Shown one piece after another: positions 48,705-62,169 of a stretch of DNA of 64,000 nucleotides. The notes beneath the pieces were generated by a model, which saw nothing but the letters and a program-made list of their open reading frames with translations, ran no database searches and was not told where the DNA came from. The stretch spans positions 62,001 to 126,000 of the forward strand of contig NZ_JAUQOM010000007.1 in the NCBI RefSeq assembly GCF_030580935.1. Reading direction: 5' to 3'. Source of the stretch: Sphingobium cyanobacteriorum (lineage in GTDB: Bacteria; Pseudomonadota; Alphaproteobacteria; Sphingomonadales; Sphingomonadaceae). Position numbers and translations under genes: made by a program. Within the stretch, counting starts at the first letter, position 1. Each line of letters starts with the position of its first letter.

Positions 48705-49852
48705 CACTACTTTGGCAGAAATGTGGAATGCGGTGGTGATAGCGCCGTTCCGCAATTCGGACAGCAGCGCGACGGCGGACGTAACAGGCGATCAAGGATG
48801 GCCTGACGGACGGCCGGGAAACTCGGCTGGGGTGGCGGACCGGAGAGTCTTTTTTTCCGCCCCGCCTGAGCGAGCCTTCATGTTTGGAGGAAGGCATAGG
48901 CGATCATTGTCATGAGCGCATGGCGATGCAGCCCGGTCCACGAGCGACCTTCGAAATGGTCGAGATCGAGTTCCTCCTTGAGTTGCTGATGCGCCTGTTC
49001 GCATATCCAGCGCGCCTTGATGGCGCCAGCGACGTCCTTGATCGGCGTGTCGGCGGGAAGATCAGTTGCACGTCTGCGGGATAGATCTTCTGGTGACGGG
49101 GAACGCCGACGGCCCAGCACAATCCTCGATCGCTGAGCGCCTGCCGGAAGGGCGCTGACAGGCCGTAGCCGGCATCCGCAAGGACGCAGCCACAGCGCAC
49201 GCCGGCAGCCAGGACGCGGTCGATCTCCTCAATGGCGATGTCAGGCTTTGTGCGATAGGCTTGGAACGCTTCGGGCACGCCCGCCCTTGTCATCCGGGGC
49301 GTATCGTTAGTCCAGCTTTCCGGCAGGAACAGTCGCAGGCCCAGCATGAGCGGAACTTCCCCCGAGGCCAGCGTCAACCGATACCAGCGTCTGGCAATTG
49401 GCGTTCTTGCCCAGGGCCGAGGCATACTGAGGGGCAACACCGACCGACGCATTGCCCTTCTTCGGCAAGGCCGTGTCGTCGATGATCAGCCACGCTTTCT
49501 CGCCGCCGACGAGATCATCGGCCTGTTGCCACAACGTCGCTTCCAGCGGTGCGCTGTCCCAAAGCCTCGCCCCGATGAAATGGTGGAGCCGGTCATAGCT
49601 GAGTGCTTCGGCGCGTGCCGCCATCGGCTGGATACTCTTGCGATCACCCGGACCGATCAGTCCCGCAATATAGGCCGGGCACATCCGCCGCCGCATCTTA
49701 TTGCCAAGCCTCTTTAAAAACGGCTCAAGCCAGCGTTCCAGAGCGCGCTGCCACTCCGTATCCACAGCCAGCCTCCATCAAAGCTGGCTCCCCATGAATC
49801 ACGCATCCCACGTCAGGGGAATCCCAAAAGTCATTTTTCTGCCAAAGTAGTG
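48705..49852 (-). mobile_element. Degenerate IS701-family insertion sequence
   Basis: The ends are perfect 17-bp inverted repeats: CACTACTTTGGCAGAAA at 48705-48721 and its complement at 49836-49852. Flanks are CTAG on the left and ATAG on the right, a nearly matching 4-bp target site (from memory the family makes 4-bp duplications of this kind). At 1148 bp it is shorter than the roughly 1.4-1.5 kb I expect, in agreement with an internal deletion in its transposase gene. Confidence 0.85.
48707..49765 (-). pseudogene. IS701-family transposase, frameshifted, internally deleted and with nonsense codon
   Basis: The N-terminal part (frame from 49765: MDTEWQRALERWLEPFLKRL, IDDTALPKKGNASVGVAPQY with the first catalytic Asp) breaks at an extra G near 49378. 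It continues in a second frame from LTLASGEVPLMLGLRLFLPES through [15 protein letters not shown] to [10 protein letters not shown]. It then jumps, at a short repeat near 49050-49065, to [20 protein letters not shown] in a third frame. The portion normally between these blocks (on the order of 100 residues) is missing. TGA at 48878-48880 interrupts the C terminus after AFLQT, and the frame goes on to TAG inside the terminal repeat. It cannot make active transposase. Confidence 0.85.
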
Positions 49853-51280: not shown

Positions 51281-51300
51281 ATTGCGAGTCGTTCGCGTTA
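51281..51300 (+). promoter_or_regulatory. Fur-like iron-responsive operator upstream of the PepSY-apbE operon
   Basis: ATTGCGAGTCGTTCGCGTTA has an imperfect dyad (TTGCGA...TTCGCG) and lies 40 bp before the PepSY-protein ATG. It shares ATTGCGA-x-T-x-GTTC with a site in front of the TonB-dependent receptor gene (57846-57864). The match to a Fur/iron box is by eye only. Confidence 0.45.
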
Positions 51301-51340
51301 TTGGGTCGCATCCTTTCTTGCAGGACTGCCCGCTTTCCCG

Positions 51341-51988
51341 ATGCACGGAACCGCCCCTATCCAGACCCAGAAAAACAGGAAGAGCGCCAGGGCCTTCTGG
51401 ATGAAGCAGCTACACACCTGGCATTGGGTGAGTTCGGCGATCAGCCTGATCGGCCTGCTGCTGTTCGCCTTCACCGGCATCACGCTCAACCACGCCGCCG
51501 ATGTCGAGGGCGCGCCGCGAACGGTCGAAAAAAGCGCCACCCTGCCCGCCAACCTGTTGCGGCAGGTCGCGGCCGACGATGCGCCCGACGCGAAGAAGCC
51601 GCTGCCCGCCCCGGTCGCCGCCTGGGTGGAAAACAGCATCGGCCAGAGCGGTGCCGGCATCGCCGAATGGTCCGCCGACGAAGTCTATCTCGCCCTGCCC
51701 CGCCCCGGCGGCGACGGCTGGGTCGCGATCGACCGGCATAGCGGCGCCGTGACCAGCGAAGCGACCAGCCGTGGCTGGATCAGCTACCTGAACGATCTGC
51801 ACAAGGGCCGCAACGCCGGCACCGCCTGGACATGGTTCATCGACATTTTCGCGGTCGCCTGCTTCCTCTTCGCGCTGACCGGCCTGCTGCTGCTTCAGCT
51901 TCATGCAAAGAAGCGCCCGTCCACCTGGCCGCTGGTCGCGGCCGGCCTCGCCATCCCGGCGATCCTCGCCATCCTCTTCATCCACTAA
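51341..51988 (+). CDS. PepSY-associated transmembrane protein (iron/flavin electron transfer module)
   Basis: 215-residue inner-membrane protein with three hydrophobic helices (about 29-50, 165-187 and 196-213) and a periplasmic PepSY-like loop of about 110 residues (GDGWVAIDRHSGAVTSEATSR). His25, His28, His51, His154 and His188 sit at helix edges and could bind b-type haem for transmembrane electron flow (inference). ATG 51341 (MHGTAPIQTQKNRKSARAFW) is chosen over upstream starts because it follows the Fur-like site. It is first of a four-gene operon with DUF2271, DUF4198 and apbE genes. Confidence 0.85.
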   Translation: MHGTAPIQTQKNRKSARAFWMKQLHTWHWVSSAISLIGLLLFAFTGITLNHAADVEGAPRTVEKSATLPANLLRQVAADDAPDAKKPLPAPVAAWVENSIGQSGAGIAEWSADEVYLALPRPGGDGWVAIDRHSGAVTSEATSRGWISYLNDLHKGRNAGTAWTWFIDIFAVACFLFALTGLLLLQLHAKKRPSTWPLVAAGLAIPAILAILFIH

Positions 51989-51999
51989 CGGGGGAATTT

Positions 52000-52524
52000 A
52001 TGCAGATCCGCCACAGCCTGTTGCTGACCGGCACCGCCGCGCTCGGCGTCGCCGCCGCGCCCGCCAGCGCGCAGACGCTGAACCTCAGCGTCGCCATCCC
52101 GCGCCTGTCGGTCGCCGAATATCACCGCCCCTATGTCGCCATCTGGATCGAGAAGGAGGGCGCTGCGCCCCGTACCCTGTCGGTCTGGTATGATGTCGAC
52201 AAGGCCAAGGGCGAAGGCACCAAATGGCTGCGTGACGTGCGCCAGTGGTGGCGCGCATCGGGGCGGACGATGCGCTTCCCGGCCGATGGCGTGACTGGCG
52301 CGACCCGCGCGCCCGGCGACCAGAAGATCGCCTTCACCGCCGGCAGGGGGCCGCTCGGTCCACTCGCGCCCGGCAACTACACGCTGCTGGTCGAGGCCGC
52401 ACGCGAAGTGGGCGGGCGTGAAGTCCTCCGCCTGCCCTTTTCCTGGCCGCCCCGTCCGGGCGCAACGGTCAAGGCCGCAGGCAGCAGCGAACTGGGCGCG
52501 ATAACCCTCACCTTCGGCAAATAA
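52000..52524 (+). CDS. DUF2271 periplasmic protein with ApbE flavinylation motif
   Basis: 174-residue exported protein with signal peptide MQIRHSLLLTGTAALGVAAA and cleavage after ASA-Q. The DUF2271 core includes YHRPYVAIWIEKEGAAPRTL, LRDVRQWWRASGRT and a final ELGAITLTFGK. The segment PADGVTGATRAPG contains D96-G-V-T-G-A-T102, the form of sites to which ApbE attaches FMN (last Thr). This suggests it is a periplasmic flavoprotein receiving electrons from the PepSY protein. The start is 12 bp after the previous stop. Confidence 0.85.
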   Translation: MQIRHSLLLTGTAALGVAAAPASAQTLNLSVAIPRLSVAEYHRPYVAIWIEKEGAAPRTLSVWYDVDKAKGEGTKWLRDVRQWWRASGRTMRFPADGVTGATRAPGDQKIAFTAGRGPLGPLAPGNYTLLVEAAREVGGREVLRLPFSWPPRPGATVKAAGSSELGAITLTFGK

Positions 52525-52531
52525 GGGGACG

Positions 52532-53371
52532 ATGACGATGAAGGCCAAATATCTCATCACCGGCGCGCTCGCCGCGCTGATGCTCTCCGGCGCGGCGCAG
52601 GCCCATCGCCAGTGGATGCTGCCATCCTCCACCACCCTGTCGGGCAATGACAGTTGGGTGACGGTGGACGCGGCCGTGTCCAACGACCTGTTTTATTTCG
52701 AACATGTGGCGATGCCGACCGACTCGATCGTCGTCACCGAACCGGACGGTGCGACCGGCAGGATCGAAAATGCCGCCAAGGGCCGCTATCGTTCCACATT
52801 CGATGTCCACCTGACCAAGCCCGGCACCTATCGCATCGCCAGCGTGACGACCGGGGTGATGGGCAGCTACATGCTGAACGGCAAGCAGGAACGGTTGCCG
52901 CGCGGCACCACCAGGGACAAGCTGGCCAGCATCATCCCCGCCGGCGCGACCGATGTGCAGACCGCCGACATGGCCAGCCGCAACGAGATTTTCGTGACGC
53001 TGGGCGCGCCGACGACGACCCTCTTCACGCCGACCGGCACCGGCATCGAACTGGCCCCCGTCACCCACCCCAATGACCTGGTGGCGGGCGAAGCCGCAAC
53101 CTTCCAGTTCCTGCTCGACGGCAAGCCGGCCGCTGGCCTGAAAGTCACGGTCATCCCCGGCGGCATTCGCTACCGCGACGCGCTGGGCCAGATCGACCTT
53201 GTGGCCGACCAGGACGGCAAGGTCGCGGTCACATGGCCCAACCCCGGCCCCTACTGGCTGAACGCCAGCCTGGGCGGCGGCCGTGAAGGCGGCGGCGAAG
53301 GGCGTCCCGCCGCCGGTCCGCTGCCCCGCCGGGCCAGCTATGTCACCACATTGGAAGTGCTGGCCCCCTGA
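52532..53371 (+). CDS. DUF4198 domain periplasmic protein
   Basis: 279-residue exported protein: signal peptide MTMKAKYLITGALAALMLSG with cleavage at AQA-H, then HRQWMLPSSTTLSGNDSWVT, whose N-terminal His may bind metal. The DUF4198 beta-rich core continues with TFDVHLTKPGTYRIAS and AATFQFLLDGKPAAGLKV, and a Gly/Arg-rich loop before the end. DUF4198 proteins are linked to metal (Ni/Co/Fe) uptake loci. AAGGGG precedes the ATG. The stop CTGA overlaps the proposed apbE start. Confidence 0.85.
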   Translation: MTMKAKYLITGALAALMLSGAAQAHRQWMLPSSTTLSGNDSWVTVDAAVSNDLFYFEHVAMPTDSIVVTEPDGATGRIENAAKGRYRSTFDVHLTKPGTYRIASVTTGVMGSYMLNGKQERLPRGTTRDKLASIIPAGATDVQTADMASRNEIFVTLGAPTTTLFTPTGTGIELAPVTHPNDLVAGEAATFQFLLDGKPAAGLKVTVIPGGIRYRDALGQIDLVADQDGKVAVTWPNPGPYWLNASLGGGREGGGEGRPAAGPLPRRASYVTTLEVLAP

Positions 53372-54345
53372 TCCAGCCCGATTCCGGCGTCCGTGTCGCG
53401 ATCGCGCCCGGCCTGTCGCCCGAACAATTTGTCGGGCGACGGCGCAGCGGCGCTGTCGTCCTTCTGGGCGGCCCCACCATGGGCACCAACTGGTCGGCGC
53501 AGATCGTCGATCCGCCCGCCGGCTGCGCCGCCATGATAGAGGGCGTGCTGGCCGGCATCATCGCCCAGATGAGCCATTGGGAAGCGGACTCCGCCATCAG
53601 CCGCTTCAACCGCACACCGCCGGGCACATGGATGCCGCTGCCGGCCGCCATGCTGACGGTGCTGCGCGCCGGCATCGCGATGGCGCGGCTGTCGGGCGGG
53701 GCGTTCGATCCCGCGATCGGCCGGCTGGTCGACCATTGGGGCTTCGGCCCCGCGCACCGGCCGGCATCGCCCACCGCCCTTGCCGCCCCCTGGACCCGGA
53801 TCGAGACAGAGGGCGACCGCGCCCGCCGCCTGGCCGATGTCACGCTCGATTTCTCCGGCATTGCCAAGGGGCATGCCGTCGATGCGGTCGCGGCCGCGCT
53901 GCGCGGGCTGGGCGTCGCCAGCTTCCTGGTCGAAATCGGCGGCGAACTGCGCGGTGATGGCATAAAGCCCGATATCCAGCCCTGGTGGGTCGATGTCGAA
54001 GCGCCGCCGGGCCTGGCCGTGCCCATCCTGCGCATCGCGCTTTGCGGCCTGTCGGTCGCCACGTCGGGCGACTATCGCCGCTTCCGGCTGGAGGGCGACC
54101 GCCGCCTGTCGCACAGCATCGACCCGCGCACCGGCACCCCGATCGCACCGGGCGTCGCCTCCGTCACCGTCCTGCACGACAGCGCGATGATGGCCGACGC
54201 CTGGGCCACCGCCATCACCGTGCTCGGCCCGGACAAGGGCATGACCCTCGCCACCCGCCACGACCTCGCCGCCCGCCTCGTCCTGCGCACGGACAGCGGC
54301 GCGCAGGAATATATGACGCCCAAACTGGCGGCGATGCTGGAATGA
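53368..54345 (+). CDS. apbE: FAD:protein FMN transferase ApbE (probable CTG start)
   Basis: Transfers FMN from FAD to Thr/Ser of target proteins outside the cytoplasm. Motifs are PTMGTNWSAQ, WEADSAISRFN, GGAFDPAIGRLVDHWGFG, VTLDFSGIAKGHAVDAVA, LVEIGGELRGDG and SHSIDPRTGTPIAPGVASV, then MMADAWATAITVLGP. The first ATG (53479) starts exactly at the conserved MGT and has no Shine-Dalgarno. The 37 codons before it read as coding sequence, back to CTG 53368 in the DUF4198 stop (CTGA), with GGAAG 10 bases upstream. The product is 325 residues from CTG or 288 from ATG. The likely target is the DUF2271 protein. Confidence 0.88.
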   Translation: MIQPDSGVRVAIAPGLSPEQFVGRRRSGAVVLLGGPTMGTNWSAQIVDPPAGCAAMIEGVLAGIIAQMSHWEADSAISRFNRTPPGTWMPLPAAMLTVLRAGIAMARLSGGAFDPAIGRLVDHWGFGPAHRPASPTALAAPWTRIETEGDRARRLADVTLDFSGIAKGHAVDAVAAALRGLGVASFLVEIGGELRGDGIKPDIQPWWVDVEAPPGLAVPILRIALCGLSVATSGDYRRFRLEGDRRLSHSIDPRTGTPIAPGVASVTVLHDSAMMADAWATAITVLGPDKGMTLATRHDLAARLVLRTDSGAQEYMTPKLAAMLE

Positions 54346-54698
54346 TGGGAAGCATGGGGGGCAGGCACAACTGCGCGCAGGCCCGCCCCCTTTGATAAAA
54401 ACGCCCTGCATCTCCCTAAAAAACCGCGCTCTTCCAATGTAGGATAATCTCTGATCTATCCTGTCGGATGACTCCACGCCGCGCGCCGCCACCGCCCCGC
54501 CGACCCGTGCCCCGCCCGGCGCGTCGCCGGCGCGTGACAGAGGCGTGGCAGGCGCGTCACTGTGACCTTGATGGCGCGCCGGTGGCGCGTCGCCATGGCC
54601 TACCCGACGCTTTGCGCGCACAATCCACGCACTTTTGCCGAAAAAAATGCGACGACGGTGTGAACTTCGGCGGGGGATCGATGCCGTGACCCTTCCGC
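54346..54698. other. 353-bp gap between convergent apbE and piuC, very GC-rich, no gene seen
   Basis: The core (54480-54600) is rich in GGCGCGT: the 11-mer GGCGCGTCGCC occurs at 54518-54528 and 54584-54594, with two further GGCGCGT copies between. A frame at 54468-54689 is Arg/Pro-rich with no recognisable features and is not called. No clear intrinsic terminator is seen for either gene. Confidence 0.5.
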
Positions 54699-55382
54699 CT
54701 ATGCCTCCGCCCAGCGGCGCAACAGGTTGTGATACACGCCGGTCAGGCGGATCACCTCGTCATGGCCCTGCCCCAGCGCCGCCGCCACACCCTGTACGCT
54801 GCGGTCGAGGTCGAACAGCATCTGCCGCGCGCCATCGTCGCGGATCATCGACTGGAGCCAGAAGAAGCTCGCCACCCGCCGCCCGCGCGTCACCGGATCG
54901 ACCCGGTGCAGCGAGGAGGACGGATAGAGCACCGCATGGCCTGCGGGCAGCTTCACCTGCTGCACGCCGAAATGGGTTTCGATCGTCAGCTCGCCGCCAT
55001 CATAGGCATCCGGTTCCTCCAGAAAGACCGTGACCGACAGGTCGGACCGGACGCGAAAGCCGGTCGCGGCCTGGATGCGGACCGCATTGTCGACATGCAC
55101 GCCGAACGCCTGTCCGCCGGCATAGCTGTTGAAGAGCGGCGGAAAAATCTTGAGCGGCAGGGCAGCGGCGATGAACAGCGGCGACCGGCCAAGTGCATCC
55201 AGGATCATCTGCCCCGCCCGCTTCGCGGCGTCGCTGTCCTCCGGCAGTTGCAGGTTGCGCTTGGCCAGCGCCGACTGGTGGCCGGATGTAACATTGCCGT
55301 CGACCCAGTCGGCAGCGTCGATCAGGGCGCGGATGGCGGCAACGCCATCGGCGTCGAGCAGGTCGGGAATGGCGATGAGCAT
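54699..55382 (-). CDS. PKHD-type Fe(II)/2-oxoglutarate hydroxylase, PiuC/YbiX family
   Basis: 227-residue 2OG-dependent dioxygenase. The metal triad is His96-x-Asp98 in [10 protein letters not shown] and His159 in [15 protein letters not shown], with Arg166-169 for 2-oxoglutarate. Family members are named PiuC or YbiX and occur next to Fiu/PiuA-type catechol siderophore receptors, as here. ATG 55382 ([14 protein letters not shown]) gives the family length. It is 61 bp downstream of the receptor gene on the minus strand. Confidence 0.93.
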
Positions 55383-55443
55383 GGCGTCGATTGCTAGGCC
55401 AAGGGGGACGGGCGGGCAACCACCCATCCCCCTGCTGCGCGGA

Positions 55444-57813
55444 TCAGAAGCTGTAGAAGAGGCTGAGCCGCGCGGCGCGCCCTTCGCCCGGTGCCGCCCA
55501 GCCACCCGACACGACACCCGTGGTCGCGCTGATATTGTTGCGGATGCCGGTATAGTAATGCTTGTCGAACAGATTCTGGACATTGAGCTGCGCGGTCAGG
55601 CCGTTGTCGAAATTCCAAGACAGGAAGGCGCGGTGGACCCAATAGTCGTCCGACCGATACTGAGTGCGGTTGAACAGGTTGGACTGGTTGAGCGCGAAGC
55701 TGCCCTGATAGGTGACGCCATAACCAAGTTCCAGGCCGAAGGGCAGGCGGTAGCTGGTGTAGAGGCTGCCCGAATGTTTGGGCGTCTGGATGAGGGCGTC
55801 GCCCTTCGCCGGATCGGGCAGAGCCGCGCTGTTGGCACACGCGGCGCGCGGGCTGGCGATGCAGTCGTTCGACGTCCCCTGCACGATCTTGCTGTCAAGA
55901 TAGGTGTAGTTGGCGAAGATCAGCCATTGCGGCGTGATGTTGCCGGTCAGGCCCAGCGCGACGCCGTCGACCCGCGAATGGCCGTCGAGCACCTGGAAGG
56001 TCGCGCCGGAGGCCGGGTCGTTGGTCGACACGCGGTAATTGGTGCGCTCGTTGCGGAACAACGCGGCGGTGGCGAGCAGCTTGCCGCCCATCAGGTTCGC
56101 CTTCGCGCCGATTTCGTAACTGCGCGCGGTTTCCGGGGCGACATCGCAATAATTGACGAAGGTGGCGCCCGATCCGGTGGTGCAGCCGGCGCGGACCGTG
56201 GCCGACGACGGCGTCTTGCTGTTGGCGTAGGCGGCATAGAGGCTGACATCGTCGGTCGGCTTGAACACCGCGCCGATACGATAGGAAAACAGGCTTTCCT
56301 TGCTGCGCTGGACGATACCGGGTGTGGTGCCGCCGCCCGCCGAAGGCAAGGCCACCGTATCGGCGCGGAAGATGTTGCGCACATCCTCATAGCGCAGGCC
56401 GCCATTCAGTTCGAACCGGCCAAATTCGATGGTATCGAACGCATAGATCGCAAGGTTGCGGTTTTCGCCATCGCTGTGGCCGGAGACGATGGCATTGACC
56501 GGCCCGGTCCAGCCGGTGTTCGGATTGGCAAGGCTGATATCCGGTTCAGCCAGCGTCGCGCCCGCCGGGGTCCGCAGCAGGTTGGCGCTGGTCAGGCGAT
56601 AATCCTCCTGCGTGGCGGACGCGCCGATGACGAGCGTGTTGCGGACACCGCCAGCGTCGCCGGTGACGATGCGCAGGTCGGTCTGGCTGTAGAGAAGGTC
56701 ATTGAGCTGATCGCGGACAAGGCCACGCGGGCCGGACGGGCGATAGGTGCCGGCGGCCATGCCGGTTGGACAGGCAAGCGGCGTCTTGAGGTCGATCGCG
56801 GTCACCGGCTGCACCCCACCGGGCAGGCAATAGGTGCCCTGCGGCGCGCTGGTGACGCTGTCCTGACGGATTCGCTGCCAGCGGCCGAGCGTCCGCAGCG
56901 AAACGGCGTCGCTGAACTGGTGCGCGAAGATGGCGGTGAAACGGTCGATATCGATATCCTGCCGGTCGAGATTGGCGATGCCGAAATAGTCGCTGTCGTC
57001 GACGCCGGGCAGCGGACCGTCCAGATTGGCGTTCGCGAAGAAGGGCACGCCATAGACTGGGGTGTTGCGGTCCTGCTGGTGGAAATAGGACAGGGTCAGG
57101 CTGGTCGGACCGTCCATGCCGAGCTTGACCGAAGGTGCAATGGCCCAGCGCTTGAAACGCTCGACATCGCGGCCCGGCAGATCGTTGCGGTGAAACATCG
57201 CGTTCAGGCGGACGCCGATGAATTCCGACGCCCGGATGTTACTGTCGAGCGTGGCGCGATAATAATCGTCGGTGCCCACGCCCGCCTCGACGATGGTGAG
57301 GCTGTCGGCCTGCGGCACCTTCGACACGAGGTTGATCGTGCCACCGACCGAGCCGGACCCGTTATAGACCGAGTTCGCGCCGTTATAGACTTCGACCTGC
57401 TGCATGTTGAACGGGTCGGTGCGGCTATATTGCGCGCTGTCGCGCACGCCGTCCTGGGTGATGTCGTTGTTGGCCGAATAGCCGCGCAGGTTGATGCTAT
57501 CGCCATAGCCGCCGCCGCCCTCGCCCGCGCCGAAGGTGATGCCCGGCACGGTGGTCAGCACGTCGCGCAAGGTCAGCAGATTCTGCTTCTTGATCGTCTG
57601 GTCGGAAATGATGGTGATGGTCTGCGGCGTGTCGAGCACCGGCGCGGTATTCTTGGGATTGACGGTCTGGTCGGCGTAGATTTCGCCGGTGACGACGATG
57701 GAATCCTGCGCCATGACGGGCGCGGGCGCATCTGCCGCCTGGGCGGGCGCGGTCGCCAGTGCGCCGACACAGCTCAGGGCGAGGAAAGAAACGGAATTTG
57801 CGGCAACGGCCAT
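55444..57813 (-). CDS. TonB-dependent siderophore receptor (Fiu/PiuA-like)
   Basis: 789-residue outer-membrane receptor. Signal peptide (cleavage near AQA-A), a TonB-box-like QDSIVVTGE about residue 36, then the plug domain with [57 protein letters not shown] and [20 protein letters not shown]. The beta-barrel ends ARLSLFYSF with a terminal Phe. There is no N-terminal signalling (STN) domain. The piuC-type neighbour supports a catecholate/monomeric siderophore substrate. Two Fur-like sites lie just upstream. Confidence 0.93.
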
Positions 57814-57845
57814 GGATGGTTCCCCTGTTTGGATGGGGGACGGCT

Positions 57846-57864
57846 ATTGCGAATAGTTCTTAAT
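57846..57864 (-). promoter_or_regulatory. Fur-like operator 1 upstream of the receptor gene
   Basis: ATTGCGAATAGTTCTTAAT, an imperfect dyad (TTGCGAAT/GTTCTTAA), lies about 33 bp before the receptor ATG. It is similar to 51281-51300 and to the second site at 57873-57891. Confidence 0.5.
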
Positions 57865-57872
57865 GTCAACGC

Positions 57873-57891
57873 TAATGCGAACAATTCCTAT
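57873..57891 (-). promoter_or_regulatory. Fur-like operator 2 upstream of the receptor gene
   Basis: TAATGCGAACAATTCCTAT is an imperfect dyad 27 bp from operator 1 and overlaps the stop codon of the RHH gene. Tandem sites suggest strong iron repression of the receptor. Confidence 0.45.
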
Positions 57892-58157
57892 GAACGAAAT
57901 TCACGCATGCGATCGAACAGCCAGCACCGGATGGCGCTGGCAAGGTTGGGTGCGGGATCTGCGGCAAGGCGCGCAACATCGATGCGCGCGATCAGGGCAT
58001 TGATGGGAAGCCCCTCCTGCGCTGCCGCCCGGCGCAGCGCATCCCAGAAAATCGGTTCGAGGCTGATTGCCGTCTGATGACCGGCAATGGTCACGCTCCG
58101 CTTGATCGGCGGCGCGAAGGGCGGCCCGGAAGGTTGGTCAGGGCCGCCCGTCATCAT
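57888..58157 (-). CDS. Ribbon-helix-helix domain protein
   Basis: 89-residue protein with IKRSVTIAGHQTAISLEPIF followed by two helices (WDALRRAAAQEGLPINALIA and LASAIRCWLFDRMRE), the pattern of RHH_4-type proteins. It may be a small DNA-binding regulator. The start ATG 58157 overlaps the phbB stop (TGATG). It lies between phbB and the siderophore receptor. Its target is unknown. Confidence 0.8.
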   Translation of the reverse strand: MMTGGPDQPSGPPFAPPIKRSVTIAGHQTAISLEPIFWDALRRAAAQEGLPINALIARIDVARLAADPAPNLASAIRCWLFDRMREFRS

Positions 58158-58903: not shown

Positions 58904-59905
58904 TCAGTCGATCCAACCCGAAAGTTCGCGGCTCATAAGCCTCTGGTAGAGAATGATAGCGTCGGCCGACGCATTTAGACAGGGCAAATAGGCGAAATTT
59001 TCACCACCTTGAGCCAAAAAAACATCTTTCGCGCGCAGGGCTATTTCCTCTAGTGTCTCAAGGCAATCCGCCGAGAATCCTGGTGTTATAACAACTATGT
59101 TGCGCACACCGTTTTTAACCAGATCGGTGAGCGTCGCTTCCGTTTCCGGTTCAAGCCACCTTGCCCGGCCGAAGCGCGACTGAAAGCTCATATGCACCGG
59201 CAAGGACAGGGCTTCGCGCAGCAGGCGGACGGTCTTGACCGACTGGCAATGATAGGGGTCGCCCAGATGCAGCGTGCGTTCGGGCATGCCGTGGAAACTG
59301 GCGAGCAGCGCGTCGGGCGTGAAGTCGAGCGCCGCGACATGGCGTTCGACCGAGGCCACCAGCGCGGCGATATAGGCCGGGTCGTCATGATAGGGCGGCA
59401 GGGTGCGGATGGCAGGCTGCCAGCGCATCGCCTTCAGCGCGGCGAAGGCGGCATCGTTCGCTGTCGCCGTCGTCGCGGCGCTATATTGCGGATAGAGCGG
59501 CGCCAGCAGGATGCGGTTGCAGCCCGCCGCCTTCATTGCCGCCAGCCGATCGGCGATGGCCGGATTGCCATAGCGCATCGCCCAGTCGACCCTCACCATG
59601 TCGCCCATCGCGACTTGCAGCGCCTGCGCGGTGGCGCGGGTGTGAACGGCGAGCGGCGACCCGTCATCGGTCCACACCTGTTGATAGGCATGGGCGGATT
59701 TCTTCGGCCGGGTCGTCAGGATCACGCCGCGCAGGATCGGCTGCCAGACCAGCGGGGGGATTTCGACCACGCGCCGGTCGGACAGGAACTCCGCCAGATA
59801 GCGCCGCACCGATTTGGCATCGGGCGCATCGGGCGTGCCGAGATTGATGAGGAGGACACCGACCTTGGGCGTCGGGATGGCGGGATGGTCCGGGGGGATG
59901 GTCAT
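58904..59905 (-). CDS. hemH: Ferrochelatase
   Basis: Inserts Fe2+ into protoporphyrin IX. The 333-residue protein has VGVLLINLGTPDAPDAKSVR, LLAPLYPQYSAATTATAND, the catalytic His in DALLASFHGMPERTL, YHCQSVKTVRLL and SFQSRFGRARWLEPETE, and late NIVVITPGFSADCLETLEEI. The last 200 bases (58904-59110) are lower in GC than the rest of the gene. ATG 59905 overlaps the stop of the molybdenum hydroxylase gene (ATGA). Confidence 0.96.
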   Translation of the reverse strand: MTIPPDHPAIPTPKVGVLLINLGTPDAPDAKSVRRYLAEFLSDRRVVEIPPLVWQPILRGVILTTRPKKSAHAYQQVWTDDGSPLAVHTRATAQALQVAMGDMVRVDWAMRYGNPAIADRLAAMKAAGCNRILLAPLYPQYSAATTATANDAAFAALKAMRWQPAIRTLPPYHDDPAYIAALVASVERHVAALDFTPDALLASFHGMPERTLHLGDPYHCQSVKTVRLLREALSLPVHMSFQSRFGRARWLEPETEATLTDLVKNGVRNIVVITPGFSADCLETLEEIALRAKDVFLAQGGENFAYLPCLNASADAIILYQRLMSRELSGWID

Positions 59906-62169
59906 GCGGTTCCCACTAGCGGAAGGCTGCGCAGCCTTTGCCCTGTCCATGTGTACAGGGCGTTGGCGATGGCGGGGGCAACCAGCGGCGCGGCGAGATC
60001 GCCGACCCCTGCGGGATCGGCGGTGCTGCGCATCAGTTCGACCGTCACTTCGCCGATGTCACCGAGGCGCGGCAGGTTCATGCGCCCCAGCAAGGCACGG
60101 GTCGGCAGGCTGCGCTCATAGGGAACGGACGCGCCCATGGCATAGGCCAGACCATAGATCAGCCCGCCCTCAATCTGTTGCCGGGCGATATCGGGATTGA
60201 CCTGATCGCCGGCATCGACCGCGGCGACGATCCGGCTGACGCTCAACCGCGCACCATCCATCGCGGCCTCGACCAGGACAGCGGCATAGGCGCCGTCCAT
60301 CATATGGGTCGCAATCCCCTGCCCGCTACCCGGCACCCCGCCCTGCCAGCCCCCCATGGCGGCGGCGGTGGAGAGGCAATGGGCCAGGCGCGGATTGCCG
60401 CCCAGCATCTGGATGCGGAAGGACATGGCCTCCATATTGGCCAGATGCGCCAGTTCATCGACGAAACTTTCGGTGAAGAAGGCGCCGTGCAGATGGGCGT
60501 TGCCGCGCGTGAACCCCAATGGCAGGCCGACATCGGCCGGATAATGATCGACCGCCCAGTTGGGAATGGCATAGGGCGGGGCCATGCCGGCGACCGCCAG
60601 CCGGGTCGCCGTATCGGCTGCGCCCGCCGCCGCTTCATGGGGCAGCGCGCCGCCGGCGATCCGCGCCCAGGTCTGCGTCAGGGCGCAGGGGGTCGCGACC
60701 TTGGCCAGCCAGCCTTCGATCGCGCCGTTACGGCCAAGCTTCGCCGCCATGCGGGCATGGGCGGGCGCGCCGGGGCGATCCTGGATCACATCTTCCAGCC
60801 GCGACCATTGCAGTTGCACCGGACGGCCCATGTCGCGGGCGATGAGCGCGGCCTGCACCCCGGCCTCCCAGTCCATCTTGCGGCCGAAGGAGCCGCCGGC
60901 ATGGAGCGGATAGAGCGTCACCGCGCGGGGCGAGAGGCCGAGCGCATCGGCGATGGCGTCGCGGGCAAGGCCGGGCGCCTGCGTCGCCATCCACACTTCC
61001 GCGCCGTCATCGTTGACGCGCGCGGTGGCGCAGAGCGGTTCCAGCGCCAGATGCAGGCCGGCATCGACCTGATATTCGCTGGCGAGGATGGTCGCCCCCT
61101 CAAACACCGGGAGCAGATCGCCCTGCGCATAGAGCCGGCGACCGGATGCACCGGAAAAAGCCTTCTCCAGCCTTTCGTCGATGCTGGCGCTGCTGACCGG
61201 CGCGCCGCGCAGGGTGAATACCGGATCGGCAAGGTCCAGCGCCTTGTTCGCCGCCCATGTGTTGCTGGCGACCGCCGCGACCCAGCGGTCCTGCCGCACC
61301 AGTTTCAGAAAGCCGGTAACGCCAGCGGGCGCGCGCGTGTCGAGGCCCGCCAGCAGCGCATCGCCGATCGGCCCCTGCCGGATCGAGGCATAGACCATGT
61401 CGGGCAGGCGGACGTCGGCGGCGAAATTATGGCTGCCATCGATCTTGGACGGGGTATCGAGGCGTGGCAGATCCTGCCCCGACAGGCGGCCATCCTGCCC
61501 CTGGCGCAGCGGCAATATGGCCGGCAGGTCGAAGTTCACACCGTCGCTGGCAATTTCGCCGATCTTCATCCGCCGCTCGGCCCCGTCGGAAATCAGACCG
61601 TCCTGAATGTCGCAGCTTTCCCATGCGATGCCCCAGCGCGCCGCCGCCGCCTTGCACAACAGCACCCGCGCGGCCGCGCCCGCATCGCGATAGGCGTCAT
61701 GGAACATCGGCACCGAAGTACCGCCGCCGGTCAGCATCAGCGCGCTGCGGGTCGCATATTGGCCGATCGCCCAGTCGCCCGCGTCGCCCAGCAGCCGTGT
61801 CCAGTCGGTTGCCAGCCATTGGCGCGCCAGCAACGTGTTGGCGTAGAGCGGGCTGAGCGGCGCGCTTTGCACCGCGACGGTGCGCCAGTCGGCGCCCAGT
61901 TCGTCCGCCAGTATCTGCGGCAGGACGGTGGTGACGCCCTGCCCCATTTCGGTCTGCGGCACGATGACGATGATCTGGCCGGCCCGGTCGATCTTGAGGA
62001 AGGCGTTGACGACCGTTTCATCCGGTCCGGCATTCAGATTGGGCTGGTAGCTGCGCGGCCAGACGCCCCAGGCGATCAGCAACCCCGCCGCCGCGCCGCC
62101 GCCGACCAGCAATGTCCGCCGGTCGATGCCCCTGTTCCTGTCCGTTCGCTTCCGCGGTGCGCGCGCCAT
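59902..62169 (-). CDS. Molybdenum hydroxylase large subunit (IorB-like), Tat-exported, without small subunit
   Basis: 755-residue xanthine dehydrogenase-family molybdopterin-binding protein similar to isoquinoline 1-oxidoreductase beta subunit. A Tat signal (GIDRRTLLVGGGAAAGLLIA, Arg17-Arg18) precedes the body. Family motifs are VIVPQTEMGQGVTTVLPQIL, HAGGSFGRKMDWEAGVQAAL, LQWSRLEDVIQDRPGAPAHA and EGGLIYGLAYAMGA. The [2Fe-2S] partner subunit (IorA) that normally precedes it is absent: the neighbours are a CoA-binding protein and hemH. Electron acceptor and substrate are unknown. Confidence 0.88.
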   Translation of the reverse strand: MARAPRKRTDRNRGIDRRTLLVGGGAAAGLLIAWGVWPRSYQPNLNAGPDETVVNAFLKIDRAGQIIVIVPQTEMGQGVTTVLPQILADELGADWRTVAVQSAPLSPLYANTLLARQWLATDWTRLLGDAGDWAIGQYATRSALMLTGGGTSVPMFHDAYRDAGAAARVLLCKAAAARWGIAWESCDIQDGLISDGAERRMKIGEIASDGVNFDLPAILPLRQGQDGRLSGQDLPRLDTPSKIDGSHNFAADVRLPDMVYASIRQGPIGDALLAGLDTRAPAGVTGFLKLVRQDRWVAAVASNTWAANKALDLADPVFTLRGAPVSSASIDERLEKAFSGASGRRLYAQGDLLPVFEGATILASEYQVDAGLHLALEPLCATARVNDDGAEVWMATQAPGLARDAIADALGLSPRAVTLYPLHAGGSFGRKMDWEAGVQAALIARDMGRPVQLQWSRLEDVIQDRPGAPAHARMAAKLGRNGAIEGWLAKVATPCALTQTWARIAGGALPHEAAAGAADTATRLAVAGMAPPYAIPNWAVDHYPADVGLPLGFTRGNAHLHGAFFTESFVDELAHLANMEAMSFRIQMLGGNPRLAHCLSTAAAMGGWQGGVPGSGQGIATHMMDGAYAAVLVEAAMDGARLSVSRIVAAVDAGDQVNPDIARQQIEGGLIYGLAYAMGASVPYERSLPTRALLGRMNLPRLGDIGEVTVELMRSTADPAGVGDLAAPLVAPAIANALYTWTGQRLRSLPLVGTA

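Follow-up and report, generated by a model that had tools for sequence, protein, structure and literature searches.

The cluster and its described relatives

PepSY-like flavinylation systems are described as gene clusters that combine a PepSY membrane protein (PF16357/PF03929), a DUF2271 protein with the motif [S/T]GA[S/T], a DUF4198 protein and the transferase ApbE with a link to Fur; a role in iron reduction has been proposed for them, and 231 such clusters contain a TonB protein (PMC8238504). The comparable Caulobacter operon CC3059-3063 encodes a transporter-like protein, DUF2271, DUF4198 and ApbE, and is repressed by Fur, with derepression under iron limitation and upon loss of fur (PMC3751524); insertions in the Caulobacter counterpart lower fitness with ethylenediaminetetraacetic acid (PMC12004947). 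Pairs of a receptor and a PKHD hydroxylase encoded adjacently on one strand are known as CciT-CciO, Fiu-YbiX and PiuA-PiuC (PMC12004947, PMC12004943). Here we analysed a locus within 64,000 nucleotides of Sphingobium cyanobacteriorum DNA (contig NZ_JAUQOM010000007.1; this whole stretch is called the window), where, unlike in the described pairs, the receptor and hydroxylase genes are convergent with a PepSY-DUF2271-DUF4198-ApbE operon, and Fur-like boxes flank the cluster.

The operon lies on the forward strand and comprises genes for a PepSY_TM_like_2 membrane protein (51341-51988; Pfam E 2.1e-78), a DUF2271 protein with a signal-like N-terminus (52000-52524; E 3.4e-45), a DUF4198 protein (52532-53371; E 1.7e-56) and an ApbE flavin mononucleotide (FMN) transferase with no recognisable export signal and a proposed CTG start (53368-54345; E 5.7e-72). 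On the reverse strand follow genes for a PKHD hydroxylase of PiuC/YbiX/CciO type (54699-55382, start taken from the NCBIfam match; PKHD_C E 1.7e-20, 2OG-FeII_Oxy_3 E 5.8e-13) and a Fiu-like TonB-dependent siderophore receptor (55444-57813; TonB receptor barrel E 1.6e-49). An earlier note on this DNA had placed all six genes in these families, and Pfam bore out families and positions; NCBIfam gave no match for the window PepSY, DUF2271 and DUF4198 proteins. The outer limits that the note had set for the cluster, 51281 and 57891, are the ends of two Fur-box-like palindromes.

We read the locus, at a probability of roughly 0.55, as a ferric reductase cluster under Fur control that belongs with the published PepSY-like flavinylation systems and sits beside a Fiu/PiuC import arm. 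In the proposed pathway iron shortage would derepress both arms, and ApbE would be made in the cytosol, translationally coupled to DUF4198, and would transfer FMN from cytosolic flavin adenine dinucleotide (FAD) to T102 of the DUF2271 precursor while this is still unfolded and before its export. The PepSY protein would move electrons across the inner membrane via haem (H28/H188 inside, H154 and H51 or H215 outside) and reduce the FMN, and FMN-DUF2271 would reduce ferric chelates brought in by the Fiu-like receptor. Through its N-terminal His, DUF4198 would bind the Fe(II) set free and hand it on, probably to a FeoB encoded elsewhere, and PiuC would act on the substrate of the receptor within the cytosol. 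We infer these steps from gene content, conserved motifs and residues, linkage, the fold match of DUF4198 and the lack of a recognisable export signal in ApbE. The joined mechanism, in which electrons pass from a haem-bearing PepSY protein via FMN bound covalently to DUF2271 and reduce ferric siderophores, had been advanced in the earlier note; the families, the D96-T102 motif, the five His and the link to iron on which it drew all stood, and it is less new than suggested there because it had already been published in outline (PMC8238504). The cluster is another example of the PepSY-like flavinylation systems, and the place of flavinylation is the part worth testing. Compared with the published type, the window is joined to a PiuC/Fiu arm, its ApbE has no recognisable leader and a CTG start is proposed; what is added here is the DUF2271-PiuC linkage, the leaderless ApbE, the CTG candidate, the DUF4198 fold match and the missing flavodoxin-type reductase.

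For comparison, loci were fetched by a DUF2271 profile search of genome contigs, giving a set of the window and 53 relatives (54 rows) in which the presence of DUF2271 is by construction and the relatives are mutually non-independent. PepSY, DUF2271 and DUF4198 were detected in 53/53 relatives and ApbE in 50/53 (no match in L009, L018 and L024, the first two of which sit at contig ends). Profile searches of the source genome found one ApbE, one DUF2271 and a FeoB located elsewhere, and detected no FMN_bind protein.

As in the PepSY-like systems, the PepSY protein of the window sits in a flavinylation-associated cluster and the DUF2271 protein carries TGAT (residues 99-102). The full motif, DGVTGAT, runs from D96 to T102 (52285-52305, forward strand) and follows the published target motif D-x-x-[S/T]-G-A-[S/T], for which the minimal length is seven residues (PMC12052999). 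T102 is conserved in 54/54 rows, Thr or Ser at residue 99 in 54/54, G100 and A101 in 53/54 each and D96 in 48/54. The DUF2271 of A. ursilacus has been shown to be flavinylated on the Thr of the same motif by its own ApbE (PMC8238504), and the DUF2271 of the window is predicted from its sequence to carry covalent FMN on T102. Its N-terminus looks like a Sec-type signal peptide by eye, as do those of the relatives; a hydrophobicity threshold for leaders, which is insensitive here, was passed by only 14/88 DUF2271 rows. A PDB sequence search with DUF2271 found no relative.

The PepSY protein matches PF16357 with 263 bits (cut-off 27) and PF03929 with 47.8 bits (cut-off 28.8), with PF10029 and PF02424 genes adjoining. 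A structural model, for which the alignment took 35/54 sequences, predicts three long helices at residues 22-49, 161-191 and 193-214 (predicted local distance difference test, pLDDT, 84.1; predicted template modelling score 0.68). Five His are conserved and sit at helix ends: H154, H188 and H215, the final residue of the protein, in 54/54 rows, H28 in 53/54 (one row truncated) and H51 in 49/54 (Asn in L035, L040, L046 and L050; one row truncated). Sequence and model suggest two haems, one on the inner side bound by H28/H188 and one on the outer side bound by H154 with H51 or H215. The siderophore reductase FoxB (PDB 7ABW) is also a PepSY-type membrane protein, with His-bound haem, and is larger (365 residues in the PDB chain; PMC11334425).

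Part of the evidence speaks against a reductase of this kind. FoxB was the top-ranked VIA match of the PepSY model, yet a weak one (Z 5.4, 149 aligned residues, root-mean-square deviation (rmsd) 11.3 Å), and Foldseek gave no match to the model at E <= 0.001; any kinship of the PepSY protein with FoxB is therefore tentative. A PDB sequence search with the PepSY protein found no relative. The cluster also holds no electron-input protein. Homologues of a flavodoxin/NAD-binding reductase (467 amino acids in L027) occur in the fetched loci of 31/53 relatives (L024-L053 and L011), among them most non-sphingomonad ones, and are absent from the fetched loci L001-L023, except L011, and from the window. 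The source genome has one Flavodoxin_1 match, dissimilar to the L027 reductase, which looks to us, presumably, like WrbA; FAD_binding_1 had no match in the source genome, a weak negative because the L027 reductase itself escapes that model. As PepSY electron donor, quinol is our guess. Caulobacter CC3059-3063 differs from the window in that it includes a flavoprotein reductase gene (PMC3751524).

ApbE and the place of flavinylation

The window ApbE matches PF02424 with 242.9 bits, and its best PDB match is the FAD:protein FMN transferase 5mgy (E 1.5e-54); in the catalytic region H212 and D240 are conserved in 51/51 sequences and T244 in 50/51. The hydrophobic leader and lipobox of canonical periplasmic lipoprotein ApbEs were found in no reading of the window gene from 53287 to 53479. 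In place of a hydrophobic leader, ApbEs adjacent to DUF2271 often have at their start a conserved block of few residues (RVLIP, RIAIP), some 20-30 residues ahead of MGT, and only 4/75 linked ApbE rows passed the leader threshold (the 75 include 12 repeat fetches of the same place; 63 are distinct). Unlinked ApbE rows, taken from the top of a score-ranked list and not at random, showed a leader in 29/32 and a lipobox in 26. The three leaderless ones (L072-L074) came from the PF10029 fetch and are properly counted among the linked rows, which leaves a leader in 29/29 truly unlinked ApbEs.

Most ApbEs are secreted; a cytosolic ApbE of Klebsiella, which like that of the window has no signal peptide, acts on soluble fumarate reductase, a cytosolic target, whereas the target in the window carries a signal-like N-terminus (PMC12052999). 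In E. coli and yeast, ApbE can also modify a tag of seven residues within the cytosol (PMC12052999), and modification of an unfolded DUF2271 precursor is therefore chemically plausible. FMN is probably attached before export in the window, because the ApbE has no recognisable export signal, DUF2271 has a signal-like N-terminus, and no second ApbE was detected in the genome. The earlier note had spoken of a covalently bound periplasmic flavin; the motif supports the flavin, and its attachment before export is more likely than attachment in the periplasm, as ApbE shows no recognisable export signal. Our full proposal is that a leaderless ApbE flavinylates the unfolded DUF2271 precursor in the cytosol, that the chain crosses the inner membrane with its FMN, and that the sphingomonad ApbE starts at a CUG coupled to the DUF4198 stop. 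It is tentative, and we would give it somewhat short of even odds.

Several points tell against cytosolic attachment. Of the four linked ApbEs that passed the threshold (L051, L053, L068 and L071), L051 is clearly lipoprotein-like, and L053 passes from a start upstream of the conserved block. The threshold misses most DUF2271 signals (it was passed by 51/91 DUF4198 rows), and the ApbE result therefore rests also on reading the N-termini. We know of no precedent for Sec export of a flavinylated chain. A possible but less favoured alternative is the same reductase with a periplasmic ApbE, as for the lipoprotein ApbEs, that gets there by a route invisible in the sequence. It accords with the secretion of most studied ApbEs and with a cytosolic version of one that failed to replace the periplasmic one (PMC12052999), as well as with the signal-like DUF2271 N-terminus and the lipoprotein-like leader of L051; it sits poorly with nearly all DUF2271-linked ApbEs being leaderless, as opposed to the truly unlinked ones at the top of the score ranking, and with a conserved N-terminal block that is not hydrophobic. 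A term search of the main text of PMC8238504, with figures and supplements outside its scope, found no mention of a cytosolic or signal-less ApbE.

The start of apbE is unusual. The open frame before MGT (53287-53478) contains no ATG, GTG or TTG, and the first usual ATG would be at 53479. In the window and 20 sphingomonad-type relatives (21/21) a CTG shares its last two bases with the DUF4198 stop (CTGA), and none of the codons ATG, GTG and TTG occurs between this CTG and the conserved block; in L019 and L021 a usual start exists far upstream, inside the DUF4198 gene. CTGA also occurs in five more loci (L058-L061 and L067) and in the more distant L069. Among these, L067 has an ATG two codons after the CTG, L059 has an ATG far upstream, and in L058 the CTG stands directly ahead of RIAIP, where other relatives carry ATG. 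The N-terminal block evolves as coding sequence in the nine relatives whose alignment has no gaps, with divergence by codon position of 0.105, 0.105 and 0.293 and a synonymous share of 0.42, while the two other frames gave 0.11 and 0.14; a coding-type divergence pattern was not seen in the first nine codons. The fixed C before the DUF4198 stop may partly mirror codon bias. We regard the CTG overlapping the DUF4198 stop as the best candidate for the apbE start in sphingomonads; in the window the stretch concerned is 53365-53479. For Caulobacter dnaA, a CUG was seen in toeprints and is unused in vivo (PMC8443254). A frameshift fusion of DUF4198 and ApbE, which would export ApbE, was rejected: the codon before TGA is CCC, GGC, CTC, TCC or GCC, with no common slippery run, and in many betaproteobacterial relatives an ATG lies just ahead of the conserved block.

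The receptor/hydroxylase arm and the link to iron

The hydroxylase is of PiuC type by NF003973 (380 bits, cut-off 336; match from residue 68 of the open reading frame (ORF)) and PF18331 (73.2 bits, cut-off 22), and falls under the YbiX equivalog cut-off (245.4 versus 399). The receptor exceeds the cut-off of TIGR01783, the TonB-dependent siderophore receptor model (250.3 bits, cut-off 223.5), and matches PDB Fiu 6bpm (E 2.3e-74); it is called Fiu-like only, because it stays under the NCBIfam Fiu equivalog cut-off (355.8 versus 686 bits). Receptor homologues of such pairs have been tied to cefiderocol resistance in pathogens (PMC12004947).

Fur-box-like palindromes were found upstream of the PepSY gene (51281-51299, ATTGCGAGTCGTTCGCGTT, 14/18 template positions), ending 41 nucleotides before its start, and upstream of the receptor (57846-57864, 15/18 template positions), where a second site was seen by eye (57873-57891, TAATGCGAACAATTCCTAT). 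Both the sites of the window and a general Fur consensus guided the making of the template, and the window's own score is circular for this reason. Across L001-L021, which are not independent, the best sites scored on average 13.71 of 18 upstream of PepSY (n=21) and 13.69 upstream of the receptor (n=13), individual sites of relatives reaching 12-15. Control means were 9.8 for MlaA (15), 10.9 for SDR (11), 9.9 for DUF4198 (21), 9.3 for ApbE (19) and 9.2 for PiuC (12), and 9.8 and 9.9 for shuffles; a score of 13 was also reached by 2/15 MlaA controls and 3/680 shuffles. Sites such as ATTGAGAATCATTATCATT also precede the PepSY gene in several betaproteobacterial relatives. Both arms are probably Fur-regulated through these candidate boxes, and the cluster's link to iron holds by the Fur-like boxes, the siderophore-type receptor and the iron-responsive Caulobacter counterpart. 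A Fur regulon table of S. maltophilia contains both PepSY and hydroxylase-pair entries (PMC6240677). The stop of a small reverse-strand ORF (57888-58157, 89 amino acids) overlaps the second receptor-side box. Its product presumably resembles a ribbon-helix-helix protein.

Among 249 genomes of the phylum, 30 had DUF2271 over the Pfam cut-off, 44 had PKHD_C and 19 had both; 3/33 genomes with DUF2271 only under the cut-off were left out. The DUF2271 and PiuC genes lay within 10 kb of each other in 10/19 genomes from five families (G000, G155, G214, G241, G119, G031, G082, G090, G094 and G154), against about 0.11 expected from random placement, a figure which assumes independent genomes. Gene orders vary: the arms are convergent in sphingomonads and, with intervening genes, in Hydrogenophaga; the receptor-hydroxylase pair is upstream on the same strand in L035, L043, L050, L062, L064 and L065, upstream and divergent in L063, and downstream on the same strand in L066. 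The two genes of the receptor/hydroxylase pair are each other's best neighbours, and a PepSY gene has been reported to rank among the next best, in less than 25% of genomes (PMC12004943).

On the strength of this linkage and of Fur-like boxes on both arms, the Fiu-like receptor may feed the reductase. We find it unlikely, though worth weighing, that the arms adjoin only through general clustering of iron genes, with the reductase serving other iron sources and no tie to the receptor. The genes do not lie within 10 kb in 9/19 genomes (distant on the same contig in G024, G127, G220, G058 and G062; on different contigs, and counted as not linked, in G175, G126, G196 and G210), PiuC lies in the fetched flank of only 20/53 close relatives, and in Caulobacter each arm has a locus of its own (PMC12004947); these facts count against a functional tie. 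FeoB, also an iron uptake gene, was nevertheless within 10 kb of DUF2271 in 0/22 genomes with both (nearest in G024, about 18 kb), a control weakened in fragmented assemblies because most of the 22 have FeoB on another contig, counted as unlinked; and the DUF2271-PiuC linkage recurs across five families in several gene orders. A literature search in a limited library found no paper mechanistically joining the flavin reductase to the hydroxylase pair.

DUF4198, further alternatives and meaning

The role of DUF4198 had been left open in the earlier note; the protein shares its fold and its N-terminal His with DUF4198/Zcp proteins that bind metals, and this suggests it as a candidate ferrous-iron acceptor. 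The mature protein is predicted to begin with the His at residue 25 (codon at 52604, forward strand), which is conserved in 52/54 rows, as are H34 and H155 of the mature protein (52/54 each). The model (pLDDT 88.9; alignment of 39/54 sequences) matched Zcp with copper, zinc and cobalt at Z 18.8, 18.8 and 18.6, and the nickel-bound Ideonella DUF4198 (9GCB) at Z 14.4 (203 aligned, rmsd 5.6 Å), with ranges beginning at residue 1 in both. Fold and, for the nickel form, position of the N-terminal His are thus shared with these proteins (PMC12537917; PDB 9GCB, 9MHL, 9MHM) at about 13-15% identity, and by our alignment the second ligand appears to differ. IsDUF4198 holds nickel by its N-terminal His and His18 with a dissociation constant of 18 nM (PMC12537917). 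The second ligand was compared through the paralogue L056: W42, present in 50/54 linked proteins, takes the position of L056 His17. The linked site may therefore differ from the nickel site, and the ligand set probably varies because of W42 and missing H34 equivalents.

Less favourable to an iron acceptor are L020 and L023, with Pro for the N-terminal His and the rest of the cluster kept, seven more distant PepSY-linked rows (L068, L070, L071, L075, L077, L099 and L103) with the N-terminal His and no H34 equivalent, and the solved DUF4198, which prefers nickel (PMC12537917). None of the terms iron, PepSY, DUF2271 and ApbE turned up when the main text of that paper was searched. The DUF4198 of Hydrogenophaga IBVHS1 (= L027) seeded that work; the linked protein has another signal peptide than the published one, which was found nowhere else in L027.

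The source genome has three DUF4198 paralogues (L055, L056 and L057) in three settings, each with an A-x-A-H-type mature start. We take these settings to be the present cluster, a place next to genes for a TonB receptor and for a protein of EF-hand-like type, and, for L057, one beside a HupE/UreJ-like gene. That third setting and the nanomolar nickel affinity of IsDUF4198 would suit a DUF4198, perhaps a whole cluster, that serves nickel or another metal. We consider this improbable in view of the Fur-like boxes, the siderophore-type receptor, the iron-responsive Caulobacter counterpart (PMC3751524) and the Trp in the linked proteins. Least probable of all, and rejected, is a PepSY protein acting as inner-membrane siderophore permease, a function predicted for PepSY proteins that have 4-8 helices and are encoded near iron-responsive receptors (PMC7190382), since ours has three predicted helices with invariant His at their ends and FoxB ranks first, if weakly, in structure.

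Upstream of the receptor arm, with one SDR gene between, lies a gene for the Fe(II)-consuming ferrochelatase (58904-59950, reverse strand, E 2e-106). About 1.5 kb from the cluster, DDE_5 transposase matches are split across two overlapping reverse-strand frames (48910-49765; profile 1-118 and 117-230).

On the ferric reductase reading, the receptor/PKHD-hydroxylase pair and the flavin reductase of PepSY/DUF2271 type, both widespread in iron uptake, become parts of a single testable pathway, in which DUF4198 would have a concrete candidate role. Should ApbE act before export, the usual view of periplasmic installation would fail for DUF2271-type clusters, this class would have no need to export FAD, and the question would arise whether the export machinery passes a flavinylated chain.

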